Positions 42,376 to 58,990 of a DNA stretch of 64,000 nt are shown here, piece after piece. The position numbers and the translations under genes are program-made. The DNA is from Oscillospiraceae bacterium (GTDB taxonomy: Bacteria; Bacillota; Clostridia; Oscillospirales; Ruminococcaceae). The stretch lies in NCBI GenBank assembly GCA_017461565.1, contig JAFTXQ010000013.1, positions 120,161-184,160 on the forward strand, written 5' to 3'. The notes beneath the pieces were generated by a model, which saw only the letters and a program-made list of their open reading frames with translations, searched no databases and was not told the origin of the DNA. Numbering within the stretch: the stretch's first letter is position 1; every line of letters begins with the position of its first letter.

Positions 42376-43370
42376 TACCACTCACCTCCGCAGTAGGCGT
42401 ATTCGCAAAGTATCTCTTCAACCGCGGTTTCCACACCATCAGGAATATAGAGCAAGTCCTCTACATCATCGACGGTGTAGCCATACTCAAGGAGCAGATC
42501 GATATCTTTCTCGGACACGCCGATGTCGCTTGCAAACTGCTTCAACTCCTTGACAGCGGCACTCTCAAACCATTCAGCGTAATCCTCAGGCTCAGCGTGT
42601 GTCCACCAATAGGGTCGGTAGCTATAATAGTAGTCGAGTGCATCAAGCTTTGCTGTATTGAACTTGGAAGAAGTAAGCTCTCCATCGGAAGATACCCTCA
42701 GAATATCTCCGCACTTTGCGTCGATTTCGGTGTAGAATTTCGTCACTAGCCCGAGCGTTATCAGCGCACAATCCAGTATAGCGGCAGTGCTTGCATAGAT
42801 GTAGAAACCCTCCTTCTCAAAATGGTACAGTGCAAGCGGATTATCGCCCTTGATGAAGTAGAGGTTCTTCGTCGCATCCAACACCGTCATAGTAAAAGAC
42901 CCCTCGAGCTGTTCAGCCATCTGTGCGATGGCATTGAAGTCAAGGGACTCTTTCAGTTCAAGCAACTGTACGGCTATGTAGCTGTCAGTCGCTATTTTTG
43001 TCACAGGTAACTTGAGATCTTTGCGGAGCTTCTCATCATTGTGAAGCACTCCATTATGTGCAAGGGCAAAGTCTGTCATACCGCAATGCCCAGAAAACGG
43101 ATGGTTGTTGTAATTCTCAAACTTATTGCCCTGAGTTGCCATTCTGGTGTGCCCCATGATGATGTTGCTCTCAAGCGGCAAGCGCAATCTCATTTTATGA
43201 GCGGCAAGGGGTCTCTTGAAAACGCTCAACTTGCCGTCATGAATATAGGCAAAGCCAGTTGCATCAGTACCCCTGACCTCACACTCCTTCGAGAGGACTT
43301 TCAGCACCTTTTCTCGTTGCTGTCTGGTGAAGTAGTTTCTGTAGTCGATAAGCCCGAATATAGCACACAT
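42375..43370 (-). CDS. Class II glutamine amidotransferase (Ntn hydrolase)
   Basis: 331 aa. Cys2 after the initiator Met is the catalytic N-terminal nucleophile (MCAIFGLIDY). GATase II signature pieces are IIMGHTRMATQG, ALAHNGVLHN and ATDSYIAVQLL. It lacks the phosphoribosyl- or synthase-partner domains of PurF and AsnB; a C-terminal helical extension is of unknown use. Two bases after the amidoligase stop. It would supply ammonia from glutamine, or remove gamma-glutamyl groups, for the adjacent ligase. Confidence 0.87.
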   Translation of the reverse strand: MCAIFGLIDYRNYFTRQQREKVLKVLSKECEVRGTDATGFAYIHDGKLSVFKRPLAAHKMRLRLPLESNIIMGHTRMATQGNKFENYNNHPFSGHCGMTDFALAHNGVLHNDEKLRKDLKLPVTKIATDSYIAVQLLELKESLDFNAIAQMAEQLEGSFTMTVLDATKNLYFIKGDNPLALYHFEKEGFYIYASTAAILDCALITLGLVTKFYTEIDAKCGDILRVSSDGELTSSKFNTAKLDALDYYYSYRPYWWTHAEPEDYAEWFESAAVKELKQFASDIGVSEKDIDLLLEYGYTVDDVEDLLYIPDGVETAVEEILCEYAYCGGEW

Positions 43371-43372
43371 AA

Positions 43373-44482: not shown

Positions 44483-44500
44483 TGTGTTGTCCTCCTAAAA

Positions 44501-44797
44501 TCAGTATTCTTCAGCAAAAAGCATGGTTGAATGGGTCTCGTCGTCAATGACGAAGATCTTTGCGGTGATTGGACGGGAGCTTGGAATGACATAGTCCCGT
44601 GAATACTCGGGGAATTCCTGCTCGTGCAGGATCTTCTGAAAGCCTTTCTCAACAGTGAGCGTAAATACCTGCAGGTAGTCCTGCTCGGGAACTTCCATAG
44701 TCCTGATAAGTCCCCATAGGAACGCCTGAACAGTGAGCGGCAAACGCTCAGAGATGCCGTTAGTACAGTAGTGCTGATTATTGAATTTTTGTGCCAT
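44501..44797 (-). CDS. DUF960-like protein
   Basis: 98 aa, soluble. Pattern NISERLPLTVQAFLWGLI...DYLQVFTLTVEK and TAKIFVIDDE matches DUF960, a small family in Firmicute plasmids and conjugative elements. First gene of the amidoligase operon with AAGGAGG upstream; a hairpin terminator lies in its leader. It might be a partner or substrate of the ligase; nothing proves this. Confidence 0.75.
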   Translation of the reverse strand: MAQKFNNQHYCTNGISERLPLTVQAFLWGLIRTMEVPEQDYLQVFTLTVEKGFQKILHEQEFPEYSRDYVIPSSRPITAKIFVIDDETHSTMLFAEEY

Positions 44798-44815
44798 GAT
44801 TTCCTCCTTAAAACA

Positions 44816-44848
44816 GAAAAATCCCCTGAGCAGTTACGCTCAGGGGAA
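44816..44848 (-). terminator. Leader terminator/attenuator of the DUF960-amidoligase operon
   Basis: TCCCCTGAGC-GTAACT-GCTCAGGGGA stem followed by TTTTTCTG, about 20 bases before the RBS of the first gene. Upstream are two small hairpins (GTAGC/GCTAC and CCGAT/ATCGG). The operon must read through it, so attenuation is likely. Confidence 0.7.
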
Positions 44849-44930
44849 CGTTCTATGATCCGATAATTGATCGGGTAGCTTATATAGCTACATAGTTATA
44901 ATATATAATTGATTTGCAACACAATAGCTG

Positions 44931-44992
44931 ATTGCCGTTATCGGCAATTATGGCGACATTTTTCAATAAATTGCTTGGATAATTGCCGATAA
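44931..44992. promoter_or_regulatory. Operator-like inverted sites between divergent genes
   Basis: Perfect palindrome ATTGCC-GTTATC-GGCAAT region (44931-44948) and a second ATTGCCGATAA (44982-44992), the same 11-base motif in inverse orientation about 40 bp away. They sit between the DUF960 operon and the + strand 133-aa gene. No cognate regulator identified. Confidence 0.5.
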
Positions 44993-45134
44993 TCTTCTGT
45001 TATCATATTCTCACAACCTCTATCCCCACGCTCTCCGCATGTCTTACCGTATTGTACCTACTGTTATCCTCTGACGGGCGACGTCTGTGTAAGCATTATT
45101 CACTTCACGAAAAATTAATTGTCCCGAAAAATGC

Positions 45135-45163
45135 TTGCAATCCTTTGCCAAAAGCACTATAAT
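45135..45163 (+). promoter_or_regulatory. Promoter of the 133-aa gene
   Basis: TTGCAA (45135-45140), 17-bp spacer, TATAAT (45158-45163), 26 bases before the start ATG. Confidence 0.72.
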
Positions 45164-45189
45164 GAAAGAAAACGGAATGAGGTGATATT

Positions 45190-45591
45190 ATGGTAGTCGT
45201 AATGGGCGGCGATCCCGATAAGGAACTGATACCCGAAGCCGCAGAACAACGCTGTTCGGAAGTCAGTACTGAACTGGAGCTTGCTTCGCTATATGCGACC
45301 GTATCTAACAAAGCGTGGTATATAGAAGATAATATCTATGATTTCAATGAAGGTACAGACGAATACAGATCCGCCTGCGACTTAACTCGCCGATGGTTTG
45401 CACTTGAAGAAAAGCTCAGAACAAGAATATTCGCTATTCTGATATCAGAGGGGGTTACAATTCCCCAAAAGGGACAAAATCAGGTGATTATTCCGTTTAT
45501 GAAGCGAAACGGATTCCTTGATATGGGCGGCTGGTGGATAGCTGAAAATGAACTCAAAGCAACAAACAGATATTCAAAGCATCTGAAGTAA
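45190..45591 (+). CDS. Hypothetical conserved mobile-element protein
   Basis: 133 aa, with AGGTG five bases before ATG 45190. Soluble and helical; contains YIEDNIYDFNEGTDEYRSACDLTRRWFALEEKLR and VIIPFMKRNGFLDMGGWWI. Such small proteins recur in Firmicute conjugative elements but have no assigned function. Transcribed away from the amidoligase operon, ending 29 bases before repeat copy 1. Confidence 0.7.
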   Translation: MVVVMGGDPDKELIPEAAEQRCSEVSTELELASLYATVSNKAWYIEDNIYDFNEGTDEYRSACDLTRRWFALEEKLRTRIFAILISEGVTIPQKGQNQVIIPFMKRNGFLDMGGWWIAENELKATNRYSKHLK

Positions 45592-45620
45592 TTTTGACGC
45601 CTTTTTTATTTCACAAAAAC

Positions 45621-45778
45621 TTGGTCACCCCATGGTCACACTTTGGTCACACATAGGTTTACGAACTATGTTTTATGAACGATTTTCCGAAAACACTCAT
45701 AACCCAAAACGGCTCTGTTATGCGATTTTCCATCGTCACAACAGAGCCGTTCCCTGAGTTACATTTCTACGAAACAAG
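45621..45778. repeat. Attachment-like repeat, copy 1
   Basis: Begins with three near-direct 11-bp repeats (TTGGTCACCCC, ATGGTCACACT, TTGGTCACACA). Later comes a 12-bp inverted repeat, AACGGCTCTGTT/AACAGAGCCGTT (45708-45752), then the conserved tract ending TTTCTACGAA-ACAAGG (45764-45778). Copies 2 and 3 lie at 55281 and 58800. The arms and core resemble an integrase attachment site. Confidence 0.7.
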
Positions 45779-45783
45779 GATGT

Positions 45784-45818
45784 AAAAAGACCACCTGCCG
45801 TAAGCAAGTGGTCTTTTT
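45784..45818. terminator. Terminator of the ABC exporter operon
   Basis: AAAGACCACC/GGTGGTCTTT-type stem with T-run on both strands, directly after the ABC stop at 45819 and next to repeat copy 1. Confidence 0.78.
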
Positions 45819-47651
45819 TTATGCATAAATAGAAGCACAGTATTTCTCCGCCTGAACGTTCCACATTTCTGCATAAGTACCGCTGTTTGCAAGAAGCTCG
45901 TTGTGAGTTCCGCTTTCTGCGATGCTGCCGTTTTCAAGCAGGATTATACGGTCTGCGTCTTTTGTCGTGGAAAGACGATGCGAAATAAGGATAACAGCCT
46001 GATTTTCCGCATTGTCCAGCATACTTTTGTTAAGACGATATTCTGCGATAGGATCAAGTGCTGAGCTTGGCTCGTCCAGAATAGCAATAGGCATATCACG
46101 CATGAACATTCTCGCGATCGCCGCCTTCTGTCCCTCGCCGCCCGAAAGCATCGTTCCCTCCTCGGAAAACTCCTTGGTAAGCTCGGTATCGATGCCCTTT
46201 TCAAGCGATTTCAGCTTGCCGCCGAAATCCGCTCTTTTAAGAGCGTCAACGATCCTGCCGCTGTCATCCTCCGTAACAAAATCAGTCTTTACGTTCTCTG
46301 CAAGTGTTGCACCGTAGATCTGGAAATCCTGGAATACAGCTCCTATCTTCTCACGATATGCCTTTGTATTAAGCCTGCGTATGTCAACACCGCCAAACAG
46401 TATCTCGCCCTCAGTCACGTCATACAATCGCATAATAAGCTTGATGAGAGTCGACTTGCCTGCTCCGTTCTCGCCAACCAGAGCAAGCTTCTCGCCCTTG
46501 TGTATGGTCATGCTCACGTTTTTCAGAACATACTTTTCAGTATCTTTATATCTGAAACTTACATTTCTGAGCTCAAGCGTGCAGTCACCCTCGGGAACAG
46601 GAACCTCTCCTTCGCAGCCCTCGATGTTTATCTCGTATTCCATGAAGCGTCGGAATTTCTCTGCGTACTGTCCGACATTCTGAAAATCCACCAGTGCATA
46701 ATTCATCTGATCAAGATGGCTCTTTATACCGTTTGTGGCATTCTTGAGTGACGCTACCTCGCCGAGCTGAATGGTCTTTTTCTCGATGGCAAGATACGCA
46801 AGATATACAGGAACTGCATAGAACTGACATACCGTAAATACGGTTATCCAGTTGATAAGCGTAGGCACGATAATCTTGAGCGAGTAACCCAGCGCCATCT
46901 TGCGCTCCTCTGCGATAGCCTCGTCATACTGCTCCATCAGCGCTTCTTCAATGCCCGTGAGCTTTATCTCCTTTGCGTATTCGGGCTGATAGAATACACG
47001 TTTTGAGTAGTCCGCCTTTCTTCCGATGCGCTGCTTTTCGAGATTGTATTCATACTCAAGCTTTGTGATGATGAATCGGGTTATGATGTTCACGATAAAG
47101 CCTATCACAGGGAAAACAGCAACCACGGGATTAATGGTGATTATCATCGTTCCCGCAATAAGCATCGCCACAAGCTGGGAAATGATCTTTGCTACGCTCA
47201 TTATAGCCTTTTTGCACATCTCCTCGGACTGGGATGCAGCTATCACGAAATCATCGTAATACTCCGGAATATCATAACAACGCAGATCCATCTTCTGTGC
47301 CTTTTCCATCAGCTCACGCTGTATCTTGCCCTCAAAGCCTATCATCTTTGTCCAGAAATAGTTTTCAAGTACACGGAATATCACCATGCGGATAATATAC
47401 AGGACCAGCATGATTGCAAGAACCTTTACTACGCTCATGATATCAGCCGTGGTAGTGAAGATATTGATTATCTCCATCAGCATAAAGGTGTCGATGAATG
47501 CGCCGACGCCCATAAATACCGTAAGGCTCGTGATAGATGCAAGCGGCAGTCTGTAATCGTGACGGAAGGCGTATTTCACAATGTAGAGCACGTTTGAAAT
47601 AAGCCTTGTCATCTTTATCTTGTCTTTCTTCTTTTCGTTTTTTACGCTCAT
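45819..47651 (-). CDS. ABC half-exporter (TMD-NBD), pair 2 second gene
   Basis: 610 aa from ATG 47651, which forms ATGA with the upstream stop and has GGAGGTG before it. Six-helix membrane domain (about residues 25-320) and ATPase domain with Walker A GENGAGKST, signature LSGGEGQKAAIAR, Walker B ILDEPSSALDP and H-loop ISHRLS, all intact. Probably heterodimerises with the preceding gene product. Exported substrate unknown; no peptidase domain or precursor peptide nearby. Confidence 0.88.
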   Translation of the reverse strand: MSVKNEKKKDKIKMTRLISNVLYIVKYAFRHDYRLPLASITSLTVFMGVGAFIDTFMLMEIINIFTTTADIMSVVKVLAIMLVLYIIRMVIFRVLENYFWTKMIGFEGKIQRELMEKAQKMDLRCYDIPEYYDDFVIAASQSEEMCKKAIMSVAKIISQLVAMLIAGTMIITINPVVAVFPVIGFIVNIITRFIITKLEYEYNLEKQRIGRKADYSKRVFYQPEYAKEIKLTGIEEALMEQYDEAIAEERKMALGYSLKIIVPTLINWITVFTVCQFYAVPVYLAYLAIEKKTIQLGEVASLKNATNGIKSHLDQMNYALVDFQNVGQYAEKFRRFMEYEINIEGCEGEVPVPEGDCTLELRNVSFRYKDTEKYVLKNVSMTIHKGEKLALVGENGAGKSTLIKLIMRLYDVTEGEILFGGVDIRRLNTKAYREKIGAVFQDFQIYGATLAENVKTDFVTEDDSGRIVDALKRADFGGKLKSLEKGIDTELTKEFSEEGTMLSGGEGQKAAIARMFMRDMPIAILDEPSSALDPIAEYRLNKSMLDNAENQAVILISHRLSTTKDADRIILLENGSIAESGTHNELLANSGTYAEMWNVQAEKYCASIYA

Positions 47652-49450
47652 GCCGTCACCTCCTCTGCAAGGTAATTCTGCGCCTGCAGCTTCCACATCT
47701 CCGCATACTTTCCGTTCAGTGCCATAAGGTCGGCATGACTTCCCTGCTCGATCACCGTTCCGTGCTCGAACATATAGATACGGTCTGCGTCACGGGTAGC
47801 GGATAGACGATGGGAGATGAAGATGACTGTCTCGCCGTCCGTTGCAGTAAGCATATTTTTATACATATTGTACTCTGCGATGGGATCAAGTGCAGAACTG
47901 GGCTCATCCAGTATCACGATATCGGGCTTGCGTGCGAAAACTCGCGCAATGGCGATCTTCTGTGCCTCGCCGCCTGAAAGTCCCATGCCGTTCTCGTCAA
48001 ACTCCTTTGTGACCATCGTATCGATGCCGTTTTCAAGGCTGTCAAGCTTGTCGCCGAACTGTGCCTTTCTGAGAGAATCCTCGACCAGCCTGCGTTCCTC
48101 GTCATTCTTCGGTCTGCGCATAAGAACGTTATGTGACAGCGGCAGAGCAAACACCTGCAGATCCTGGAACACCGTACCGAAACGGCGGTGCAGCGACTTC
48201 GGCTCATACTTTGCGATATCCTTGCCGCTGATAGTAATTGCGCCCTCTGTGGGGTCATAAAGTCCCATGATAAGCTTGACGAGAGTCGTCTTACCTGCGC
48301 CGTTGTGACCTACGATAGCGATCTTCTCGCCCTTTCTGATGCTGATATTAACATCATGCAGTGTTGGCTTGTTTGCGCCCTCATAGGTGAAGCTCATATC
48401 CTTAATCTCGATATCCGAGAGGTTCTTAGCACGGATAAGCTCGTCTGCATTCGTCTTAGGTTCGTAGGAAAGGAACTCACGCAAGTTAGTAACGAATGCG
48501 CTCTCCTTAGCAAGGGAAACTATAAGCTCCACCGCATCGGATGTCCTCCAGGACAGCGTCGAAAGTGCGGGTATCATCGCAACATAAGCGGCGGTCTGCA
48601 CCTCGCCCTCATTCAGCACGAACGCTATGTACAGATACGGCAGTATCGTTGAGAGAATGTTGTATAATATCCATTTCAGCGGCTCGATAACGCACAGCTT
48701 TCTGCGTATCAGACGGGTGCGCTCCTCCATCTCCTCATACGCCTTTTCGTGACGCTTGAGCAGCAGCCTGCCGATGCCGAACAATCGCAGTTCAGATGCA
48801 TATTTCTTTTCATAGAACACACGCTTTGCATAGCTGCCGATACGTCCGTCACGGGTGTTTGACATATCGAGGGAGTAGTAGAGATCTCCCTCCTTCTTTC
48901 CGAAGAACATCGAAACTGCCACCATAGGCACGATGAACAGTAGCAGCCATGGATCGACATTCGCAACGATGATAGTCGCCGCAATTACCGATGCAATACC
49001 TGCAACGAGATATGCGGAAAAATAGAGGATGTTGTTTCCCCTCCACTGGCATTCGTTCAGCGCACGGGTGTATTTGTCGTAGAAATCGGGACGCTCGAAC
49101 TCTGCAAACTCCATTGATATAGACTTTCGTATCACACGCTTGTAGAAATCCTGATACATCTTCGGCAGGAACTGCTTTTCGCAAAGCTGATGTATCGCCG
49201 CCGTGATATGTATACAGATATGTCCGATGCACATTGCACCCACAAATGAAGCAAGCGCCGTAAAAGGTGTTTTGTTTTCAATTGCAACATATATCCACTC
49301 TGTCAGGTATACTGAAAATATCGTCCAGAATACGTTCTCATTGAATTCCTTTATGAACGTGTAGATGACATAGCCTTTACTGCCGTGCCATAATATCTTC
49401 AGCATATACAGTACGTTAGACAGAGAGGATGGCTTTTTTTCTTTCTTCAT
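47648..49450 (-). CDS. ABC half-exporter (TMD-NBD), pair 2 first gene
   Basis: 600 aa from ATG 49450 (GGGAGG upstream). Membrane domain followed by an intact ATPase: GHNGAGKTT, LSGGEAQKIAIARV, VILDEPSSALDP, ISHRLS. The N-terminal YMLKILWHGSKGYVIYTF resembles exporters found beside peptide-antibiotic genes in Clostridia. Follows the third ABC gene after 77 bases. Confidence 0.88.
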   Translation of the reverse strand: MKKEKKPSSLSNVLYMLKILWHGSKGYVIYTFIKEFNENVFWTIFSVYLTEWIYVAIENKTPFTALASFVGAMCIGHICIHITAAIHQLCEKQFLPKMYQDFYKRVIRKSISMEFAEFERPDFYDKYTRALNECQWRGNNILYFSAYLVAGIASVIAATIIVANVDPWLLLFIVPMVAVSMFFGKKEGDLYYSLDMSNTRDGRIGSYAKRVFYEKKYASELRLFGIGRLLLKRHEKAYEEMEERTRLIRRKLCVIEPLKWILYNILSTILPYLYIAFVLNEGEVQTAAYVAMIPALSTLSWRTSDAVELIVSLAKESAFVTNLREFLSYEPKTNADELIRAKNLSDIEIKDMSFTYEGANKPTLHDVNISIRKGEKIAIVGHNGAGKTTLVKLIMGLYDPTEGAITISGKDIAKYEPKSLHRRFGTVFQDLQVFALPLSHNVLMRRPKNDEERRLVEDSLRKAQFGDKLDSLENGIDTMVTKEFDENGMGLSGGEAQKIAIARVFARKPDIVILDEPSSALDPIAEYNMYKNMLTATDGETVIFISHRLSATRDADRIYMFEHGTVIEQGSHADLMALNGKYAEMWKLQAQNYLAEEVTA

Positions 49451-49527
49451 ATTTCCTCCCATTGTTCTGTTTTCTTTATTCTGACATATTCAAGTAAATA
49501 AATCAAGCGTTTTAAATCGTTTGTTTT

Positions 49528-51324
49528 TTATCCACACAAATACTGTCCCGCCTGAACACGCCACATTTCAGCGTATTTGCCCTTTCGTTCGAGCAGTTCA
49601 GCGTGGCTGCCTTCCTCGATGATCCTGCCTTTTTCAAGCATATAGATACGATCGGCAATTCGTGTTGTTGAGAGTCTGTGGGAAATAAACACGACCGACT
49701 TGTGCTCCGCCGCCGTCAGCATTGAGTGATTCAGGTGATACTCGGCAATGGGGTCAAGTGCGGAGCTAGGCTCGTCAAGAATAATTAGGTTAGCGTCCTT
49801 GTAGAACACTCTTGCAACTGCGAGCTTCTGTCCCTCGCCGCCTGAGAGGTTCACGCCGTTTTCCTCAAACTCGGTGGTGAGATTGGTTTGAAGTCCATCG
49901 GAAAGCGTTTCAAGACGTTCAGCAAAGCCACTCTTTCCGATAGCGTTAAGCACATCCTCATCCTTGCCGTTTTCCGCAAAATCAAGCAGGACATTCTCCT
50001 TTACCGTTGCGGCAAAGATCTTGAAATCCTGGAATACAGTGCCTATCTTACGGCGGTATTCCTCCACATCATATTCCTTGATGTTCACTCCGTCAAGAAG
50101 AATTTCGCCCTCATTGGGGTCGTACAAACGCATTATAAGCTTGATGAGCGTGGTCTTGCCCGCACCATTGTAGCCGACAATAGCGATCTTGCTGTACGGG
50201 TTTATTTTCATACTGATATTATTGAGAATATAGCCGTCCTTTTCGTTGTATCCGAAAGAAACGTTACGAAGCTCGATCTCCGTAGGCTTTTCGGGAAGTG
50301 GCTTCTTGTCCGCGCTGATTATCTTAGGCTCGATGTCAAGAAAATTCTTCATTTTCTGAACATACATACTGATCTCTTCCATTTTAGGGAACACGTCGGA
50401 AAACTGCCTCATACGGTTCTTCATTCGGTTAGCCGTACCACGCATTACCGCAACATTACTGTACGAGATTCTGTGAAGCACCGCCGCACAGAACACGAGA
50501 TACACCATATACACCACATCAATGAGGAAGCCGTTGCAGATATAATCCTTGAGCAGCTGTAAGCCGAAACGCTTTCCTGCGTTCCTTTTATCAATGTCAA
50601 GCACCTTGTCGTTTGTTTCGTCAAAGTCTTTCAGAAGCTCGTCAGATACTTCAGTATTGAGGCGGACTTCCTTTGCGTAGTCGTTGAGATAGAACACACG
50701 GTTTACATAGCCGAGCTTTCTTTCGTGAGGATTTTTCTCGGTGCGTATTCTGAAATTCAGCTTATTGAGAGCCTTACCAGACCATAAAGATGCCGCAAAT
50801 GATACCGCAATAAATATGAACGAGATAGGGTCAGTGCCGATAAAGAACGCACCCGACAGCACGATGGAAACAAGTCCAGTGCAGAGGTTCGTTATAAGCG
50901 TAAAGATACGTCCTATCTGATTATCCACCTCGGAAACCGACAGCACATAATCGTTGTAGAATTCGGGGTTGTCGTAACATTCAAGGTCGATCTCCTTAGC
51001 CTTGTTGAACATCATTTCCTTGATAGCCTGTTTGATCTTCGGCTGTGCTTTCTGCTGTAATTTCTGATAGAGGAAAGCATTGAAAAGCAAGCCTAAGACA
51101 ACGAATGCCAGAAGCGCTAAAAGGAACGTTGCCGCTACCTCAAAGGGTCTGCCGAACTCCGCGCACTCCAGCACGAAATTCAGCGCAAGCGTAAACTCTA
51201 AGAACACCACAAGCTCGTTTCGTATTGCCTCGATTATGTAGCATATCATATATCCCGGAGCGGCTTTGTAGCATATCTTGAACAGCCACAGATTGTCGGA
51301 TAACAGCTTTTTGTATTTTTTCAT
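49528..51324 (-). CDS. ABC half-exporter (TMD-NBD), pair 1 second gene
   Basis: 598 aa, ATG 51324 overlapping the previous stop (ATGA), AGGGGG upstream. Intact NBD: GYNGAGKTT, LSGGEGQKLAVARV, IILDEPSSALDP, ISHRLS. TMD has conserved GYMICYIIEAIRNELVVFLEF. Likely partner of the next gene upstream. Confidence 0.88.
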   Translation of the reverse strand: MKKYKKLLSDNLWLFKICYKAAPGYMICYIIEAIRNELVVFLEFTLALNFVLECAEFGRPFEVAATFLLALLAFVVLGLLFNAFLYQKLQQKAQPKIKQAIKEMMFNKAKEIDLECYDNPEFYNDYVLSVSEVDNQIGRIFTLITNLCTGLVSIVLSGAFFIGTDPISFIFIAVSFAASLWSGKALNKLNFRIRTEKNPHERKLGYVNRVFYLNDYAKEVRLNTEVSDELLKDFDETNDKVLDIDKRNAGKRFGLQLLKDYICNGFLIDVVYMVYLVFCAAVLHRISYSNVAVMRGTANRMKNRMRQFSDVFPKMEEISMYVQKMKNFLDIEPKIISADKKPLPEKPTEIELRNVSFGYNEKDGYILNNISMKINPYSKIAIVGYNGAGKTTLIKLIMRLYDPNEGEILLDGVNIKEYDVEEYRRKIGTVFQDFKIFAATVKENVLLDFAENGKDEDVLNAIGKSGFAERLETLSDGLQTNLTTEFEENGVNLSGGEGQKLAVARVFYKDANLIILDEPSSALDPIAEYHLNHSMLTAAEHKSVVFISHRLSTTRIADRIYMLEKGRIIEEGSHAELLERKGKYAEMWRVQAGQYLCG

Positions 51325-53147
51325 GCTGTAACCCCCTCTCTGTAAGTTTCATCCGCAAGATAATTCTGTGCCTGCTTTGTGAACATCTCGCAGTATTTAC
51401 CGCCCATATCCATAAGCTGACGGTGAGTGCCCTGCTCGATAACAGCACCGTTTTCAAGCATAAACACCTCGTCTGCGTCCTTTACTGAGGACAGACGGTG
51501 CGAGATAAACAGCGTGATGTGTCCCTTGCTCTCGTCCATAATTCCCTTGTACAGGTCATACTCTGCGATGGGGTCGAGAGCGGACGATGGCTCGTCAAAG
51601 ACTTTCACGCTCGCCTGCTGTGCAAAGGCTCTCGCAACGACTATCTTCTGCTGTTCGCCGCCTGAAAGCACAGCGCCGTCATTGTCAAACTCTTTTGTCA
51701 TGATGGTGTTCATTCCATTCGAGAGGCTCGAAACCTTGTCCCATACTCCCGCACATTTAAGCGCACGCTCGGCTGTTTCATCGGGGTTGTCGAAACTCTC
51801 GCCCATAAGCACGTTATCTCTCACCGACATAGCCATGACCTTATAATCTTGAAATGCCGCAGAGAACTGCTTGCGATAAGCTTTGAGGTTGTATTCCTTT
51901 ATGTTTATGCCGTTGACAAAAATTTCGCCGCTTGTTGGGTCGTAAAGTCTGAACAACAGCTTGATGATAGTTGACTTACCTGCGCCGTTGTGACCTACAA
52001 GAGCGCAGACCTTATCGCCCTCAATTTTGAAAGAAAGGTCGTTGATAACAGGCTCGTTTTCCTTGTATTCAAAGCACACGTTCTTGAACTCGATGGAGCG
52101 TATCTTTTCGGGAATGATTCCGTCCTGATCCTCGGGGATCTTCTCCTTGTACTCCATGAAAGTGCGGAAATATTCAAGGAACTGACCGTTCTTCATAGCC
52201 TCTGTGATGTTATTGAACATACAGAACAGCATCCACGAGGATGTATTCATAGCCGAGAACATGATGGCAAGCTCCGCAAGATCCATCGTCTGCGAAACGA
52301 TGGTGCGGTAAGCGGAATAAATCATAATTCCCTCGAAAACAAGGGCGAAGGTTGTAACGTTCTGTGCCCAGTTGTAGACGATGGCTTTCTTTGCGTACTT
52401 GTCAGCGACCTTTACATTTCCGTCCATCGCCTTGTTGTAGCGGCTCATCATAAGCTCGTGAATACTTGAATAGCGTATCTCCTTTGCGTATTCAGCAAGG
52501 TGCATCACACGGTTGACATACTCTGCGATACGGTTATTCTTGACGGTATCGACATATCTGCCGCCCCATATCTTGTTCATAAGCCGACCGAAAACGAAGT
52601 TTCCGATAATGGGCGAAATTACGAACAGCACCGACCACGGGTCGATAGTAAACATCGACCAGAACGCCGCCAGCGCCGCAACAGCACCGAAAAGCACCTC
52701 GAACAGCATTCTAACCGAGGATATCATCTTATCAGCGGAGTTCTCCAGTGCCATCGTGTACTTGTTGTAAAAGTCTGCGTCCTCAAAGCAGCGAAGCTCC
52801 ACATTTCTCGCCTTTGCATAGAGCTTCCTGTACAGACAGCGGTAGACCTTATTCTCTGTGCTGGGATATACGACCGCCTTGCGATAGCTTGAATATATCG
52901 CAATGGAACAGCACACCGCAAAGCAGATTCCGATAAACAGCATTATCTCCTCAAAGGGAGCTTCTCTTTCTATCGCACCGATAACGTAACGCAGGAAGAA
53001 AATGCTCATGAATATCCATTCCACATAGTGGATGATATTGCCCACTGCCAGATGTATTACCTGACGCTTGCTTATCTGCCATACAGTTTTCAGCGCATAG
53101 AAGTTGTTGGCAAATATGCGGACCTTGCTTTCTTTTTTCTCCTTCAT
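51321..53147 (-). CDS. ABC half-exporter (TMD-NBD), pair 1 first gene
   Basis: 608 aa, ATG 53147. NBD: GHNGAGKST, LSGGEQQKIVVARAF, Walker B VKVFDEPSSALDP (Phe replaces Leu before Asp; the catalytic Glu is kept), ISHRLS. First of four tandem exporters, downstream of the two acetyltransferase genes. The operon probably exports an acetylated or otherwise toxic compound, or confers resistance; this is inference. Confidence 0.87.
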   Translation of the reverse strand: MKEKKESKVRIFANNFYALKTVWQISKRQVIHLAVGNIIHYVEWIFMSIFFLRYVIGAIEREAPFEEIMLFIGICFAVCCSIAIYSSYRKAVVYPSTENKVYRCLYRKLYAKARNVELRCFEDADFYNKYTMALENSADKMISSVRMLFEVLFGAVAALAAFWSMFTIDPWSVLFVISPIIGNFVFGRLMNKIWGGRYVDTVKNNRIAEYVNRVMHLAEYAKEIRYSSIHELMMSRYNKAMDGNVKVADKYAKKAIVYNWAQNVTTFALVFEGIMIYSAYRTIVSQTMDLAELAIMFSAMNTSSWMLFCMFNNITEAMKNGQFLEYFRTFMEYKEKIPEDQDGIIPEKIRSIEFKNVCFEYKENEPVINDLSFKIEGDKVCALVGHNGAGKSTIIKLLFRLYDPTSGEIFVNGINIKEYNLKAYRKQFSAAFQDYKVMAMSVRDNVLMGESFDNPDETAERALKCAGVWDKVSSLSNGMNTIMTKEFDNDGAVLSGGEQQKIVVARAFAQQASVKVFDEPSSALDPIAEYDLYKGIMDESKGHITLFISHRLSSVKDADEVFMLENGAVIEQGTHRQLMDMGGKYCEMFTKQAQNYLADETYREGVTA

Positions 53148-53179
53148 TTTGATCAGTCCTTTCTTTTGTATATTACAAG

Positions 53180-53938
53180 CTATGCTTTTGACGCAAAGCC
53201 TGCTTCCATAGTAAATGCTTCACGAAATCCCGCTCTGTAACAGATATGTTCAGACGGGCCCGCCCACTGCCAGCACATTGGGAATTTATTATCCTTGCAG
53301 TATTCTACCATAAAGCTGAGTAGCTCGCTTGCATAGCCGTTTCCACGGTGCTCCTTTGCGGTAACAATGTAATCAAAACGGGTGTTGCCATGTTCTGACT
53401 TGTGAATATCTGAATACACGACCGCCTTGCCGTCGAGGTAACCAACAAAAAGATAAGTACCGTCCTGTTCGGTGCGTTTTTTGGTGACCTCTATCTCCCA
53501 AGGCTCGCCGCTTGGTATAAGAATGTCAGTTGCGACACGCTCGTCCCACTCGTTCAGGACACGGATATCCAGTCGCTTCGGAGTAACGATGCTGTTCTCC
53601 GCTGTCAGGAGCATTACCCTGTGGTCGTCCTCGGCGGTGTAGTAATAGCCGTGAGCCTTCAGCGTTTCAAGGTTATTTTTGAAGTAGCCCTTTTCAAAGG
53701 GATGATATATCGACGCATTTGTTCCGAGCCTGCTATAAAACTCTGTAATATCATCAAGAACTGCACCAAGATCAGTAATTTTGTCAGGGTAAATGCAGGC
53801 GTGGTTTCCGTCATAAGAATCCTTGTTGTCAGCCATATAGAAAAGGATTCCGTATTCCTTTTCTTCGTATGAGGCAAAACGCTTCGGGAAGTCGATTTCT
53901 TCCTGTTTTATGCTATTCACAAGATTTGTATCATTCAT
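53180..53938 (-). CDS. GNAT-family N-acetyltransferase
   Basis: 252 aa. The C-terminal GNAT core has the acetyl-CoA loop (KEHRGNGYASELLSFMVEY, Q/R-x-x-G-x-G/A type) and a following FPMCWQWAGPSEHICYRAGFRE tract. The N-terminal half (EKEYGILFYMADN...) is an extra domain, as in two-part GNATs. AAAGGAG before ATG 53938. Second gene of the leader-controlled operon; could modify a drug or a toxin. Confidence 0.82.
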   Translation of the reverse strand: MNDTNLVNSIKQEEIDFPKRFASYEEKEYGILFYMADNKDSYDGNHACIYPDKITDLGAVLDDITEFYSRLGTNASIYHPFEKGYFKNNLETLKAHGYYYTAEDDHRVMLLTAENSIVTPKRLDIRVLNEWDERVATDILIPSGEPWEIEVTKKRTEQDGTYLFVGYLDGKAVVYSDIHKSEHGNTRFDYIVTAKEHRGNGYASELLSFMVEYCKDNKFPMCWQWAGPSEHICYRAGFREAFTMEAGFASKA

Positions 53939-53951
53939 GTTATTCTCCTTT

Positions 53952-54464
53952 TCATTTTATATCGATCCAGTATCTTTGTTCTATTACGCCGTCTACACAA
54001 ATTTCATTTTCCAGCACACCACCGTTATTGATAATGCTTTTAGCAGATCCGATGTTATCCTTATCACATACCATAAGTACTCTTTCTATGCCAAGCTTTC
54101 TGCATTCCTGAAGCGCAAGACCAATCATAGCAGTTGCAATACCTTTTCTTCTTTCCGAGGGAACTACACCATCGCCTATGTGACCACCGTTAAGTAAAAG
54201 TGATTCATTTAAGAAATGTCGTATATTTACCGCACCTACCACAATATTTCTGTCTGTATCAAGGCAGAAAAAAGTTGAATCAGGCACCAGACTACCGCTT
54301 GCATCCTTTATTTCCAGATTATCGCAATAATATTCAAAATCGTGATAATCAATTCTGCGGATAGAGTAGGGTATTATTTTTTCGCCCGTGCCGTACCATT
54401 CATCCAGCATATCGGAAATCTGCTTTTTATATTCAGCACTTGCCTTTATCAGTTTTAAATTCAT
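53952..54464 (-). CDS. GNAT-family N-acetyltransferase
   Basis: 170 aa, single GNAT domain: GDGVVPSERRKGIATAMIGLALQECRKLGIERVLMVCDKDNIGS (acetyl-CoA loop RRKGIAT). RBS AAAGGAG before ATG 54464. Follows an attenuator-like leader. Resembles streptothricin- or ribosomal-protein-type GNATs in size only. Confidence 0.83.
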   Translation of the reverse strand: MNLKLIKASAEYKKQISDMLDEWYGTGEKIIPYSIRRIDYHDFEYYCDNLEIKDASGSLVPDSTFFCLDTDRNIVVGAVNIRHFLNESLLLNGGHIGDGVVPSERRKGIATAMIGLALQECRKLGIERVLMVCDKDNIGSAKSIINNGGVLENEICVDGVIEQRYWIDIK

Positions 54465-54485
54465 CGTAATTTTCTCCTTTATCTA

Positions 54486-54522
54486 AAGCAAAAAGCGTGC
54501 ACTTCATACAGAAATGCACGCC
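54486..54522 (-). terminator. Attenuator terminator of the acetyltransferase-ABC operon
   Basis: GCGTGCA/TGCACGC stem with a 13-base loop, followed by TTTTTGC, between the leader ORF and the first acetyltransferase. An alternative hairpin (CGCATTATC/GATAATGCG, 54541-54559) overlaps the leader stop codon. Confidence 0.75.
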
Positions 54523-54547
54523 TTGAAATACCAATAATAACGCATTA

Positions 54548-54628
54548 TCAGATAATGCGATCAACGGCAGACAAGTGTTCATCTCTGAATATGAGCATAG
54601 CTGATGTGTGATGATAACGCTTAAACAT
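54548..54628 (-). CDS. 26-aa leader peptide
   Basis: ATG 54628 has AAGGAGG nine bases upstream; it encodes a 26-aa peptide beginning MFKRYHHTSAMLIF. It lies between a strong promoter and an intrinsic terminator before the acetyltransferase genes. The layout matches ribosome-stalling or attenuation leaders of resistance genes; the inducer is not known. Confidence 0.72.
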   Translation of the reverse strand: MFKRYHHTSAMLIFRDEHLSAVDRII

Positions 54629-54663
54629 ATTGTCTGCCTCCTTTTCAAAAATAATGTTCCTTT

Positions 54664-54692
54664 AGTATAGCACTGCTAATTGAATTTGTCAA
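54664..54692 (-). promoter_or_regulatory. Promoter of the leader-acetyltransferase-ABC operon
   Basis: TTGACA (54692-54687), 17-bp spacer, TATACT (54669-54664) on the minus strand. Confidence 0.85.
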
Positions 54693-54758
54693 GATGTTCC
54701 GTAAAAATATGCTCATATTATCAGGATCACAGCTTTATTATACATCAATAGCAATAGT

Positions 54759-54788
54759 TTGTCAATATCTATCGATGATTTATATAAT
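54759..54788 (+). promoter_or_regulatory. Promoter of the XRE gene
   Basis: TTGTCA (54759-54764), 18-bp spacer, TATAAT (54783-54788). It diverges from the leader promoter, about 70 bp away. Confidence 0.6.
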
Positions 54789-54828
54789 CTTTAGATTGGT
54801 TTATACTATTTCTAAAGAGGTGATCAGA

Positions 54829-55155
54829 ATGAATGAACTTAATATAGAAGTAGGTGCGAGAATAACCGAACTGCGCAAACAACGTGGATATACCCGTGAA
54901 AAGCTGTCAGAGCTTGCCGATGTTTCGGTACAGTTCCTTGCGGATATCGAAAAAGGGCGCAAATCTATGACCGTTGCTACTCTTAAAAGAATTGCCGCCG
55001 CTTTGCTTGTGCCGACGGATCATATCGTAAACGGTACAACGGATACTAACGATAACGATGGGATCATTTCAATCCTAAACACCCTTTCCGATAAGAACAA
55101 AAAGCAGGCAGAGAAGATCCTGACTGTTTTTGCTGAGGCGGTCAATTCGGATTAG
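54829..55155 (+). CDS. XRE-family regulator
   Basis: 108 aa from ATG 54829 (GAGGTG six bases upstream), not the longer frame. HTH at residues about 8-60 (ITELRKQRGYTREKLSELADVSVQFLADIEKGRKSM). Divergent from the acetyltransferase-exporter operon, so it may control it. No ligand domain beyond a short C-terminal tail. Confidence 0.85.
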   Translation: MNELNIEVGARITELRKQRGYTREKLSELADVSVQFLADIEKGRKSMTVATLKRIAAALLVPTDHIVNGTTDTNDNDGIISILNTLSDKNKKQAEKILTVFAEAVNSD

Positions 55156-55179
55156 GAAGATTAATGTACTATAAATTTA

Positions 55180-55213
55180 AAGAGGTATCATCTGATGACG
55201 ATACCTCTTTGTC
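55180..55213 (+). terminator. Terminator of the XRE gene
   Basis: AAAGAGGTATC/GATACCTCTTT stem and T-rich tail, about 25 bases after the stop. Confidence 0.75.
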
Positions 55214-55280
55214 ATATTCCGCTAGTTTGTCTTAATAACTTTTTCTGTAGTGAATGCCCTCTTTCGGTCGGGGGAATAAT

Positions 55281-55415
55281 TTTGGTTCACACCTGAGTTT
55301 TCGTACACGTTTTACGGACGATTTCTGACAGCACGTTCACAACACAGAACGGCTCTGTTATGCGATTTTTCATCGTCACAACAGAGCCGTTCCCTGAGTT
55401 ACATTTCTACGAAAC
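55281..55415. repeat. Attachment-like repeat, copy 2
   Basis: Shares with copies 1 and 3 the AACGGCTCTGTT/AACAGAGCCGTT inverted repeat (55349-55393) and the terminal tract TTTCTACGAA-ACA. Only one clear GGTTCACAC-type arm remains upstream. The DNA after it (55416-55460) has a diverged GGCGTGCC-CACA, weakly like the tRNA 3' end after copy 3. Confidence 0.7.
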
Positions 55416-55471
55416 AGAAGATGGCATACGAGGCTTGTATTCTACTGAGGCGTGCCCACACTTACAATGAA

Positions 55472-55518
55472 AATAACCGTCTGAAGCATTATCAACAACG
55501 GTAATTCAGACGGTTATT
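55472..55518. terminator. Terminator of the MBL-nuclease cassette operon
   Basis: AATAACCGTCTGAA/TTCAGACGGTTATT inverted repeat, T-rich on both strands, directly after the stop at 55520. Confidence 0.8.
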
Positions 55519-55519
55519 T

Positions 55520-56692
55520 TTATATCTCTACTAAAATTTCAGGAGCGATCTCCCTGAATCTCTCTGCGTTTTCTGTATGAACAGGAATTATAACATCGGG
55601 ATTTACAGTGTCGATAAACTTTCTGACAGCATTTTCATCTGCGTGACCGCTTGTGTGGAGCGTTTCGATTTTCAGCCCCATAGCCTCACACTCTGATAAA
55701 AACTCTTTCATCTTCTCATCGTTTTTATATCCGCTCCAGAATGAATAGATGAGCAATCCATCTTCAAAAGACATTTTTTCTGAAAGCGATTTCAGGTACG
55801 GAAGCATAGTAGTTCTTACGCACATCGCAAAGCGCATTTTCGATATTCTGTCCTTACCGACTTTTCTTTTATATTCCGAAACAAATCTATATTTTGACGG
55901 ACTTGTTATAAAAGCGTAAACATCGCTGAACTTCGGATTGGGAATGTGCTCACCTGCGGCAGTTGTGATTCCTGACATATATGCGTCCTCTAGGAAAACT
56001 CGGTCCGTACGTTTCGCAGCACGATACATAGTTACTGCTCTGTCTATATTCATCGAGGACTGCAGGATAAAAACCGGTCCCTTGTTTTCAGAAAACAGCT
56101 TGACGGCTTTTTCTTCAAGAGTCTTTTCTGTTACAGCGAAATATCCCTCTCTTGAAAAAGTCGTTCCCTCACATATCAGCTTGTCGATCTTCTTCGGCAA
56201 TGAGTTGAGGAGCATACTGAACGGCTTTCTTCCGTTAGAACGAAAATCACCTGTGTACAGAACGCTTTCTCCTCCCGAACTGCAAAGCAGCATATAGCTG
56301 TCAAAGGCGGAATGATCGCATAGAAACGGTGTTACCGTTATATCTCCTACAACGATCTCTTCCTTGTGATGCAGAAATCCTTTCGGAGTTATCGTTTCGT
56401 TCCCCTTGTAATTATCCGTTGTTTTGATTATGTTGTAGCTACTTTCGCCTATGTAAACAGAAATATCCCTGTGTGCTTTATATACAAGCCCTAAATGGTC
56501 GCCGTGATAATGAGAAACGAACACTGCATCATAGCCTGCATATTCAAACAGAGCAGGAATATCAGGCAGTTCATCTTGCTTATCATTATCAAGCTCAAGT
56601 CCTGCGTCAAGCAGGATTTTTGTGTTATCGGTGGAGATTTCTATGATGTTTCCGCCGATCTGGTTTTTACCACGGATTACATTAACTTTCAT
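55520..56692 (-). CDS. RNase J-like metallo-beta-lactamase-fold hydrolase
   Basis: 390 aa from ATG 56692 (an ATG at 56701 is also possible). MBL core with metal motif SHYHGDH (about residues 57-63), DHSAFDSY and VLYTGDFR, and the later HTSGHAD/PVHTE motifs of the beta-CASP type (HxSGH, VIPVHTE), so likely a nuclease acting on RNA or DNA. Smaller than housekeeping RNase J. Last gene of a five-gene operon that also encodes a PD-(D/E)XK protein. Confidence 0.85.
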   Translation of the reverse strand: MKVNVIRGKNQIGGNIIEISTDNTKILLDAGLELDNDKQDELPDIPALFEYAGYDAVFVSHYHGDHLGLVYKAHRDISVYIGESSYNIIKTTDNYKGNETITPKGFLHHKEEIVVGDITVTPFLCDHSAFDSYMLLCSSGGESVLYTGDFRSNGRKPFSMLLNSLPKKIDKLICEGTTFSREGYFAVTEKTLEEKAVKLFSENKGPVFILQSSMNIDRAVTMYRAAKRTDRVFLEDAYMSGITTAAGEHIPNPKFSDVYAFITSPSKYRFVSEYKRKVGKDRISKMRFAMCVRTTMLPYLKSLSEKMSFEDGLLIYSFWSGYKNDEKMKEFLSECEAMGLKIETLHTSGHADENAVRKFIDTVNPDVIIPVHTENAERFREIAPEILVEI

Positions 56693-56942
56693 TTTTACCA
56701 TTCTTCTTTGCTCTGAGTTTTTTCTCAGCGACAAGTCTGGCATGACATACAGCACAATACTTTTTCCCTTCAAATCGGTGCAATCCGTCTTTTCTTCCGC
56801 ATTTTTCGCAGATACCATACCAGCTGTCTGATACTGGTGTTGCCGTTCTTGATTTTGCTTTAGGTTGGAACAAATGTCCGATTGCCGTTCCGATCATAAC
56901 AAACAATTCTCCTACGACAAGGAAAACAAGAAGTATTTTCAT
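56682..56942 (-). CDS. Membrane-anchored zinc-ribbon protein
   Basis: 86 aa. N-terminal TM helix (MKILLVFLVVGELFVMIGTAIG) and a C-terminal zinc ribbon CEKCG...CAVCH, then a basic tail. Overlaps the MBL start by 11 bases, suggesting coupled translation. Function unknown. Confidence 0.7.
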   Translation of the reverse strand: MKILLVFLVVGELFVMIGTAIGHLFQPKAKSRTATPVSDSWYGICEKCGRKDGLHRFEGKKYCAVCHARLVAEKKLRAKKNGKNES

Positions 56943-56978
56943 TTTTTACCTCGAAACAAATTACAAGTAATTCAAATA

Positions 56979-57641
56979 TCACTTTTTATATTCAGCAATA
57001 TATAAGAGCAATACATCATCTACTATTGAAATAAGATTCTCTATGTCATCATTTGTTTCCAAAACTTTCCCAAATGACACTGTAATATTTGCTCCATCTT
57101 TATCAAGAGAATAGGATGTGGAATAATGATTATATTTCTTTTCGCAAAAACCTTTAATGTGTCCAGCTATTATATCGGGGGTGAATGGTTCGCCAAAAAA
57201 CTTTTTTCTTACATAGAATGTAATTTTATCAGGAGATTGAGCTTTTATTTCGAAAAATCGCATATAATCCTTGCATTCAACACCAAATAATGCGTCAACA
57301 TTTTTGGCAAGGTCATACCTGATAAACTCCTGATTTTTTAGCACATCGTTTTCGTTTGTTTCCTTTGCCTTGTGCTCTTGAATAAGCGGTGCATAGGACT
57401 TTTCTATATCTTCCATGGCTGTTTCAAGCTTTCCTCTAAAAGTAACAACATCTTTTTTGACCAAAGCCTTAAACGCAATGAAGAGTACCATCATATCTAC
57501 AATTATTCCAGCAATGTCCTTTACGGCTGCTGCAATGGATACAGTTGAAATACCGCCAAATACTACTTCGCATATGATAGCTATAAATGCAACTATAGCA
57601 ATTATTCCCGCTATTAAAGTTTCTCTATCAATCTTTTTCAT
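56979..57641 (-). CDS. Two-TM membrane protein of the nuclease cassette
   Basis: 220 aa. Two hydrophobic segments (about residues 10-32 and 43-60) followed by a soluble C-terminal domain of about 155 residues (MRFFEIKAQSPDKITFYVRKKFFGE). Architecture is that of small membrane effectors/sensors in defence operons; no family recognised. Four bases after the nuclease stop, strong RBS GGAGG. Confidence 0.7.
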   Translation of the reverse strand: MKKIDRETLIAGIIAIVAFIAIICEVVFGGISTVSIAAAVKDIAGIIVDMMVLFIAFKALVKKDVVTFRGKLETAMEDIEKSYAPLIQEHKAKETNENDVLKNQEFIRYDLAKNVDALFGVECKDYMRFFEIKAQSPDKITFYVRKKFFGEPFTPDIIAGHIKGFCEKKYNHYSTSYSLDKDGANITVSFGKVLETNDDIENLISIVDDVLLLYIAEYKK

Positions 57642-57645
57642 TGTT

Positions 57646-58326
57646 TTAATCCTCCGTTACAATATAATTATCAGTGCCGCTTATATAATAAGGCTTACTG
57701 TAGAGCAAATCCATAAGTCGTTTCAAATGTGGGCGTGGTTTTTCCATTTCTTTGTACTGTTTACCGTCTTTGAATACAAACGGACAAGCCTTGACAACCG
57801 TATCAGCAGGCAAATTAAAATCTGAAAGCAATTTGGGTTTGTCAACTGTTTTCCAATATGTAAAGGCTTCAAGCACACAGCGAAGCATCGTTTCATCGCT
57901 GTCAGGCTTTTTCAGTTCAAGAATGCGTAGCGTTTTTCCGTCATAAGCGAGCAGATCTATCTTGCCAGCATGGTCACTGTCATTACTATTCAACGGTGTC
58001 TGATAGTCAAGCATCTCTCCGACACAACTATACTGATGACCATACATTCTCTTTGCGATATTTTCTTCATCTCGACCACTATTAGGATTATGCACTTTTC
58101 CGTCATGACTGGTGGTTTTGTAAGAGTATTGCCTTGTAATTACAGGCATTCCGCCTATATATGCAGATATGTTATTGCACAAAAACTCTGCTATCACTTC
58201 TGTATAATATTCATCGGTATCCTCGGTCTTGCCTCTGTAATTGATAAAAGGCTGTTTATAAAATGTCTTTTTGTCATTGAAAGCCTCTGTGCATTTAGCA
58301 AGAATACGATCTCTTGTGTAACCCAT
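57646..58326 (-). CDS. PD-(D/E)XK nuclease-like protein
   Basis: 226 aa. The core GKIDLLAYDGKTLRILELKKPDSDET (about residues 122-146) shows the D...ExK catalytic pattern. Downstream helices contain LEAFTYWKTVDKPKLL, with a possible Q/W loop. Unlike stand-alone restriction enzymes it has no separate DNA-binding domain visible. RBS AAGGAGG before ATG 58326, two bases after the upstream gene's stop. Confidence 0.75.
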   Translation of the reverse strand: MGYTRDRILAKCTEAFNDKKTFYKQPFINYRGKTEDTDEYYTEVIAEFLCNNISAYIGGMPVITRQYSYKTTSHDGKVHNPNSGRDEENIAKRMYGHQYSCVGEMLDYQTPLNSNDSDHAGKIDLLAYDGKTLRILELKKPDSDETMLRCVLEAFTYWKTVDKPKLLSDFNLPADTVVKACPFVFKDGKQYKEMEKPRPHLKRLMDLLYSKPYYISGTDNYIVTED

Positions 58327-58327
58327 A

Positions 58328-58714
58328 CTACATTTCCTCCTTTGTGTAATAAGTTGCTGTTCTTACCTTAAAATACTCGTTCATTGATATAGAGACATTT
58401 TTCTGTCCCTTATAATGCAGTCCGAACTTAAACACCATACCCCAGAATGCACCGATACTCTTTTTGACGAATATCGGAAGCTCCGCATCAGGTCTGCCCG
58501 TCATAACTATAAAGTCATCTTTGTAATAAGTCAGGAAAGTCTTTACAGGAGGAATGCAGAAAATGTCGTTACAGAAAATAATGTTTGACAATAGCTGTTC
58601 ATCACAAATTGCCTCTATACATTTGTTCCAATACGCCTTATACTCTTTATTTTCCTGAAACTCTCTGAAATGAGTATAGATTTCAGGAAAGTTTATCTCT
58701 ATATATTCTCTCAT
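58328..58714 (-). CDS. Hypothetical first gene of the nuclease cassette
   Basis: 128 aa, soluble, aromatic-rich (FREFQENKEYKAYWNKCIEAI, FLTYYKDDFIVMTGRPDAELP). No family recognised. AGGCGG before ATG 58714; directly under the consensus promoter and operator. It could be the regulator or the sensor. Confidence 0.6.
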   Translation of the reverse strand: MREYIEINFPEIYTHFREFQENKEYKAYWNKCIEAICDEQLLSNIIFCNDIFCIPPVKTFLTYYKDDFIVMTGRPDAELPIFVKKSIGAFWGMVFKFGLHYKGQKNVSISMNEYFKVRTATYYTKEEM

Positions 58715-58727
58715 ATAACCGCCTTTT

Positions 58728-58780
58728 TACATATATGAATTTCATATATGTATTATATCATGATATATATTGTTTGTCAA
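58728..58780 (-). promoter_or_regulatory. Perfect promoter with operator palindrome for the nuclease cassette
   Basis: TTGACA (58780-58775), 17-bp spacer, TATAAT (58757-58752). Immediately downstream is a 25-bp palindrome TACATATATGAA-A-TTCATATATGTA (58752-58728), covering the likely transcription start. Strong but probably repressed. Confidence 0.82.
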
Positions 58781-58799
58781 CACTTAATCAGCCATTTCC

Positions 58800-58952
58800 A
58801 CGGCCACATCCTGGTCACACTTTGGCCACACCTGAGTTTTCGGACACGTTTTACGGACGATTTCTGACAGCACGATCATAATACGAAACGGCTCTGTTAT
58901 GCGATTTCTCATCGTCACAACAGAGCCGTTCCCTGAGTTACATTTCTACGAA
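58800..58952. repeat. Attachment-like repeat, copy 3
   Basis: Three 11-bp near repeats (CGGCCACATCC, TGGTCACACTT, TGGCCACACCT) at 58801-58833, the 12-bp inverted repeat AACGGCTCTGTT/AACAGAGCCGTT (58888-58932), and the core TTTCTACGAACC, at which the sequence becomes tRNA. Marks the border between accessory array and chromosome. Confidence 0.75.
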
Positions 58953-58990
58953 CCAAGGGGTCAGGGGTTCGAATCCCTTCTGGCGTGCCA
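58946..58990 (+). tRNA. 3' half of tRNA-Arg(ACG), partial
   Basis: CTACGAA fits an anticodon loop with U33 and anticodon ACG; then CCAAG stem strand, variable loop, T-arm AGGGG-TTCGAAT-CCCTT and a 3' end with CCA at 58988. The segment is 45 nt, exactly tRNA positions 32-76. The 5' half is absent: the bases before it belong to the repeat and cannot pair with CCAAG. Non-functional remnant left by recombination in the anticodon loop. Confidence 0.72.

Follow-up and report, generated by a model that had tools for sequence, protein, structure and literature searches.

The right end of element B, a 72-kb mobilizable element in an Oscillospiraceae bacterium, carries three direct repeats that are, judged from their sequence, copies of its right attachment arm, each with arm sites, a hairpin and a crossover core. 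We lean towards the reading that the integrase of the element joined the core of its right end (attR) to sites outside any tRNA gene, at least twice, stacking cargo at that end. Sequence comparison brought out two features on which this reading is built: first, the element ends, tRNA halves and integrases, with an attachment-site anatomy that relatives share; and second, a loss of homology at the 7-bp core in copies 1 and 2 and in two copies from other species, all four of which run on into non-tRNA DNA.

The window, i.e., the whole stretch of 64,000 nucleotides that was analysed, corresponds to C9:120161-184160 of a genome (G000) in 19 contigs, and ARAGORN found no complete tRNA in it. The original prediction had proposed recombination in the anticodon loop of tRNA-Arg(ACG) and had left the intact tRNA, an integrase gene and further repeat copies to be sought elsewhere in the genome. 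The intact tRNA-Arg(ACG) was found at C9:84324-84400, 94.7 kb left of copy 3, and displaced 45-bp 3' halves of it lie at C9:106667-106711 and C9:179106-179150; the order along C9 is tRNA, element A (22 kb), half, element B, half and chromosome. As predicted, the window itself holds no tyrosine integrase: the two PF00589 genes found in the genome are both on the same contig, just outside the window. One, at C9:101427, is 3.8 kb short of the right end of element A; the other, at C9:107788-109182, is ~1.1 kb into element B from its left end and 11 kb before the window starts. Next to the latter are a relaxase (PF03432, E 1.5e-16, ~0.5 kb away) and a D5/DUF5906 protein, and type I modification genes are found within element B. 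Element B thus has an integrase near one end and a relaxase and, in tandem with element A, lies between the intact target gene and a displaced fragment of it; on these predicted features, we class it among the mobilizable-type elements that carry both a tyrosine integrase and a relaxase, with its insertion site in the anticodon loop of tRNA-Arg(ACG). The proposed site of recombination is supported by the intact tRNA, both integrases, the arms at left ends and the relatives.

Element B also contains phage-type genes at 18586-32253 of the window (terminase, minor capsid protein, Mu-type transposase and AAA protein), which suggests a nested Mu-like prophage. A block of resolvase, GATase-like and amidoligase-like genes lies towards its right end (window 41829-44908) and again at the left end of element A (L012:4411-7489), inverted and 79% identical to the block in element B. 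It is as if the integrase and the gene block had been swapped relative to the tRNA between A and B, with the attachment site inverted within the element.

Table 1. Features of the right end of element B and its cargo (window positions).
Feature	Position	Strand	Basis	Remarks
Element B, part in window	1..58945	+		left end, integrase and relaxase outside (C9:106667 to about 110620)
Copy 1, three arm sites	45623..45652	+		GGTCACCC, GGTCACAC, GGTCACAC; 11-bp spacing
Copy 1, 12-bp perfect hairpin	45708..45751 (stem 45708-45719/45740-45751)	+	fold	between arms and core
Copy 1, core CTACGAA	45767..45773	+		122 nt past start of last arm; then ACAAGGATG, not a tRNA half
Block I	45774..55280	-	Pfam, motif	four ABC transporter genes, two GNAT acetyltransferases, XRE-type regulator (plus strand)
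XRE-type gene of block I	54694-55155	+		
Copy 2, sole remaining arm	55284..55292	+		degenerate, GGTTCACAC
Copy 2, 12-bp perfect hairpin	55348..55391 (stem 55348-55359/55380-55391)	+	fold	
Copy 2, core CTACGAA	55407..55413	+		then ACAGAAGATG
Block II	55414..58799	-	Pfam	beta-CASP/RNase J-like metallo-hydrolase; four ORFs with no Pfam match
Copy 3, three arm sites	58802..58831	+		11-bp spacing
Copy 3, 12-bp perfect hairpin	58887..58930 (stem 58887-58898/58919-58930)	+	fold	
Copy 3, core and displaced 3' half of tRNA-Arg(ACG)	58946..58990	+		core 58946-58952; true attR, right end of element B

The repeats foretold at 45621, 55281 and 58800 are real and form one family of direct copies (D7, 129 nt); relative to copy 2, copy 1 is 78% and copy 3 94% identical, and exact stretches of 43-46 bp are common to the arm copies. 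The 12-bp inverted repeat likewise bore out, as all three stems are perfect and, folded as single-stranded DNA, they outdo shuffled sequences (z of -5.79, -5.82 and -4.18 for copies 1, 2 and 3, with 0, 0 and 1 of 200 shuffles as good). Three regularly spaced arms had been claimed for copies 1 and 3 and were found there; at copy 2 only one degenerate arm is left (Table 1). Copy 3 passes at its core, much as had been described (there for positions 32-76), into the 3' part of the tRNA: 45 nt there are the same as positions 33-77 of the intact tRNA-Arg(ACG) of the genome. Copies 1 and 2 pass from the core into DNA that is not tRNA, also as described. A search of the genome with copy 3 plus the tRNA half returned eight matches: copies 1-3; the duplicates of copies 2 and 3 on contig C12; 45-bp matches to one intact tRNA gene and to one half; and a 32-bp match in another tRNA-Arg. 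Over the 13,326 bases in which contig C12 overlaps the end of the window there are 19 differences, 18 being in contig-end tandem repeats, and C12 was treated as a contig overlap rather than as separate copies. The genome therefore holds three distinct copies, all in element B, and they are not widely scattered. No Rfam match at gathering cut-offs was obtained in 45000-59500. Right of copy 2, the stretch at 55416-55433 (CAGAAGATGGCATACGAG) was found only at this locus and its C12 duplicate among the loci compared, and other sequence follows it; we take it to be one base off a sequencing-adapter sequence, a likeness that is probably due to chance.

The same geometry recurs in relatives. A scan of 37 loci for arm-motif clusters yielded 12 distinct clusters followed by CTACGAA (a thirteenth being the C12 duplicate), and the core lay 121-125 nt from the start of the last arm in 10 of the 12 (78 nt in G005:C11 and 151 nt in G010). 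All eight clusters that lack a core sit just right of an intact tRNA or a tRNA half. Arms are of three types, GGTCACAC, GGGTACAC and GTGCGCC. The cluster pattern misses copy 2 and an internal copy in genome G008, and it found nothing at the tRNA halves G012:C245:10850 and G021:C68:7901 or at the occupied tRNAs of G000 and G008; right of the intact tRNAs in G000 and G008, arm-like repeats can be read by eye, these being left arms that the pattern missed. The hairpin is not conserved: the copy at G005:C11, which carries a tRNA half, has no left stem arm, and no matching stem was seen by eye at the right end of element A.

Matches to the repeat copies occur in 4 of 43 genomes of the genus, one of them just 27 bp long; G005 belongs to the same genus as the window genome. 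An exact scan of genome contigs for CYTGAGTTACATTTCTACGAA gave two stretches, both in SIG524 (taken as G005). Among 396 genomes of the family, a right-arm search in which at most two candidates per genome were scored matched only G000, and exact arm-core patterns, which require exact arms and so miss copy 2, element A and the internal copy of G008, gave one match for GGTCACAC arms and two for GGGTACAC arms. In viral contigs there were no matches to two exact right-arm patterns, and of three stretches fitting the integrase peptide pattern none was confirmed. Plasmid records had no match to 55281-58990, and phage records no near match to the 8 kb at the left end of element B.

Elements with different arms have in common a motif of ~24 nt (GGCTYTGTTATGCGRTTTGTCATTT-like) between arms and core, in either orientation: at L011:6445-6468 (right end of element A), window 58886-58912, L080:1536-1559 and L087:14857-14880. 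Of 15 further loci, 10 have it too, six of these with other direct repeats of 11-bp spacing beside it (by eye); it may be an accessory binding site. In L077-L080 (G018:C3:85001-160000), a left end with GGTCACAC arms and a right end with GGGTACAC arms enclose two integrase matches, and no tRNA half was found between the two ends; this locus is perhaps a fused pair of elements.

Five of the right-arm copies found have no tRNA half after them: copies 1 and 2, G005:C4:244-371, G008:C5:104821-104954 and G007:C72:2760-2829. In copies 1 and 2 and at G005:C4, homology is whole up to ACGAA and gone beyond it; at G008:C5 it ends two bases into the core, and at G007:C72 it stops in the hairpin. Breaks at or within the core are thus seen in 4 of the 5, in three species and with two arm types. 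By a hand estimate, four independent breaks within one 8-nt stretch of ~210 nt would arise by chance with a probability near 2 in a million, a figure weakened by the likeness of copies 1 and 2 for a few bases past the core (ACA..AGATG-like), as these two may not be independent. The first listed gene points toward the core at all four core junctions (1 in 16 by chance). In G005, the genes next to both copies look chromosomal by eye, and a search at E 1e-60 gave no integrase relative there.

The internal copy of G008 hints at how such junctions are ordered. A small ORF ends ~17 nt before its arms, and because a similar ORF is found at the right end of an element in G020 (57% over 46 aa), this copy looks like the native end of its element, to which ~10 kb of cargo and a second arm would have been added before the tRNA half. 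If element B grew in a like manner, its earlier right end would be copy 1 and its present one copy 3; no native right-end gene of element B common to other elements was found.

The cargo between the copies comprises two blocks (Table 1). The prediction of minus-strand genes in each is borne out except for the XRE-type gene of block I. All four ABC genes of block I have the ABC signature LSGGE-QK (Pfam was run on one of the four). Its first ABC pair has similar pairs in G005, G006, G009 (partial), G019 and G020. Block II, whose beta-CASP/RNase J-like operon spans 55520-58714, is a possible defence operon; PADLOC returned a weak NERD-like match for one of its five proteins and nothing else. It is matched in 8 of 43 genomes, mostly by short pieces, with long matches (73-75% identical) in G008, G018 and G031, and in G008 and G018 the operon also lies within tRNA-Arg islands. 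The pair in G006 is 85% identical at the DNA level and lies 2.7 kb right of an intact tRNA-Arg(ACG), beside which no arm cluster was found. This similarity continues to the left across the terminator (G006 has an extra stretch there) and ends some 5 bp short of the core of copy 1. Further left, the likeness of G006 to the copy 1 junction is weak (231 of 20,000 random 30-mers as good) and that of the G006 target to the canonical core poor (1,670 of 20,000 random pieces as good).

No match to an arm copy was found in the stretches examined beside these homologues (eight loci: G008, G018 and G031 for block II; G005, G006, G009, G019 and G020 for the ABC pair), and a 20-kb stretch of G005 has one arm-like cluster without similarity to the copies. 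Because homologues in relatives come without an arm copy, movement of the blocks solely as att-bounded cassettes is disfavoured. Of the two models first put forward, serial integration finds support in the intact tRNA, the integrases, the left-end arms and the relatives, and an array of att-bounded cassettes is not borne out, given these homologues and the lost arms of copy 2. With one assembly per species in the data, the relatives provided no case in which a site differs only by the presence or absence of a block.

We infer that the integrase would use the core of a right end already in place for recombination with sites unlike the tRNA (pseudo-att sites). Two routes may be envisaged: a) a circle with cargo and a right arm enters attR; or b) the attR of one element and a pseudo-site in the neighbour on its right become joined, with deletion of what lies between. 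Through successive rounds, block I and then block II would come to lie right of an earlier end; the order and direction of these events, too, we infer. Several lines of evidence were counted for such core joining: i) the element ends and integrases; ii) the arm-core geometry; iii) the core breaks in 4 of 5 copies; iv) the native end in G008; v) the uniform gene orientation (4 of 4); and vi) the weak likeness of the G006 junction. Counted against it were: i) the homologues without arms; ii) the single arm of copy 2; iii) the hairpin break at G007:C72; iv) the poor core in G006; v) the chromosomal setting in G005; and vi) the tRNA halves and tRNAs without clusters.

The main rival is decay of ordinary tandem elements: three related elements would have accumulated at the tRNA, and the inner two would have lost their left ends by ordinary deletion, leaving CIME-like remnants. 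This is a serious alternative, if an unlikely one. Tandem elements at tRNA-Arg(ACG) are plain both here and in relatives, accretion and CIMEs are documented in the review PMC5704250 as far as its text was available, and the stretch after copy 2 is slightly tRNA-tail-like (205 of 5,000 random pieces as good). However, the stretches after copy 1 and G005:C4 are not (2,245 and 2,151 of 5,000 as good), and breaks left by ordinary deletion would not be expected at the core in four of five copies. The arm-cluster pattern found no left-end cluster in either block, and no convincing integrase was detected in 45601-59000 (the best were 45 aa at 24% identity with E 0.001 and 23 aa at 35% with E 0.23), nor any integrase remnant in the G008 cargo at E 1. 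As in a CIME, no integration or transfer genes were found in the blocks (Pfam on nine block proteins, one of the four ABC genes among them), but both edges of each are of the right-end type instead of an attL and an attR.

Homologous recombination between the right-end arms of different elements could have swapped or inserted the cargo, with the core junctions made earlier elsewhere. The arms are 78-94% identical, with the exact shared stretches given above, and the likenesses seen by eye, of copy 1 to G005:C4 and of copies 2 and 3 to G005:C11, argue that arms circulate between genomes; copy 2 and G007:C72 are also alike, again by eye, over about 25 bp left of the arms. We consider this explanation doubtful, and more so than decay, as it does not account for how arm and core became linked, with the junction at the core, to DNA other than tRNA.

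Integron cassette arrays consist of cargo units that each end in one recombination site with a hairpin, and the blocks at the right end of element B resemble them in this respect. It is nevertheless improbable that the tyrosine integrases of these tRNA-Arg elements take up cargo circles serially at attR through a single right-arm-plus-core site, making the right end an integron-like platform for operons without an integron integrase. The units here are multi-gene, the arm sites are separate, the hairpin is not conserved and no attI-like platform was seen. The integrase fell short of the integron model TIGR02249 (46.9 bits against a cut-off of 265) and of the best-scoring model NF040815 (107.5 against 220). 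Nor does a conserved folded site accompany each unit (a strong hairpin in the three copies, no left stem arm in G005:C11 and none by eye in element A), and no match to an arm copy was found beside the homologous operons examined elsewhere.

An assembly artefact joining unrelated pieces through the repeats is very improbable: exact shared stretches of 43-46 bp in a single, 19-contig assembly could permit one, but C12 has copies 2 and 3 with the same neighbours (though within the same assembly), and the junctions in G005 and G008 come from other assemblies. A dispersed, MITE-like repeat without a role in integration, a reading to which the truncated G007:C72 copy and the two G005 copies lend something by sitting where no complete element was recognised, is scarcely credible and was rejected, as the genome has only three distinct copies, all in element B, matches are confined to 4 of 43 genus genomes (one only 27 bp) and the arm-core geometry is that of true element ends.

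Joining of the attR core to non-tRNA sites would be a variant of already known island behaviour, because islands that accrete in tandem, use secondary sites or contain internal att sites have been described; indeed, the available text of four reports (PMC5704250, PMC4057263, PMC3146451 and PMC2297512) covers most of what is seen here. The tRNA-gene integrative and mobilizable elements outlined in PMC5704250, with their tandem accretion and CIMEs, share the tyrosine integrase and relaxase, the target restored at one end with a fragment at the other, and the tandem arrangement; in element B, unlike in those outlined there, the internal right ends have at the core a junction with other DNA in place of a fragment of the target gene. 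In PAISt of Streptomyces (8-bp palindromic repeats, modules shown to excise), an internal att repeat likewise divides the island into modules, with a tyrosine recombinase at one end, and the identical CTACGAA of copies 1-3 similarly makes copies 1 and 2 internal att copies with the same crossover core. The portion of that report at hand (PMC4057263) describes one internal and two flanking repeats, whereas here there are two internal arm-plus-core copies, putative modules and a tRNA-Arg target. The ssrA islands of Dehalococcoides, in what is accessible of PMC3146451, are also serial, bounded by direct repeats and downstream of one RNA gene (15 of 31 are without an integration module), but they use a serine recombinase and their repeat is the ssrA 3' end itself, whereas the internal copies here have no tRNA sequence beyond the core. 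SGI1, as presented in the excerpted PMC2297512, is also a mobilizable island that uses a secondary site and forms tandem arrays, but it repeats whole islands and not only a right arm.

A literature search over titles and the openings of abstracts, which is not proof of absence, found no published internal right ends without a target half. The pickup of cargo operons at one end of an island has mostly been inferred after the fact. Internal right ends whose junctions fall at a 7-bp core, found with two arm types and in three species, provide precise sites at which integrase-driven stacking can be tested.
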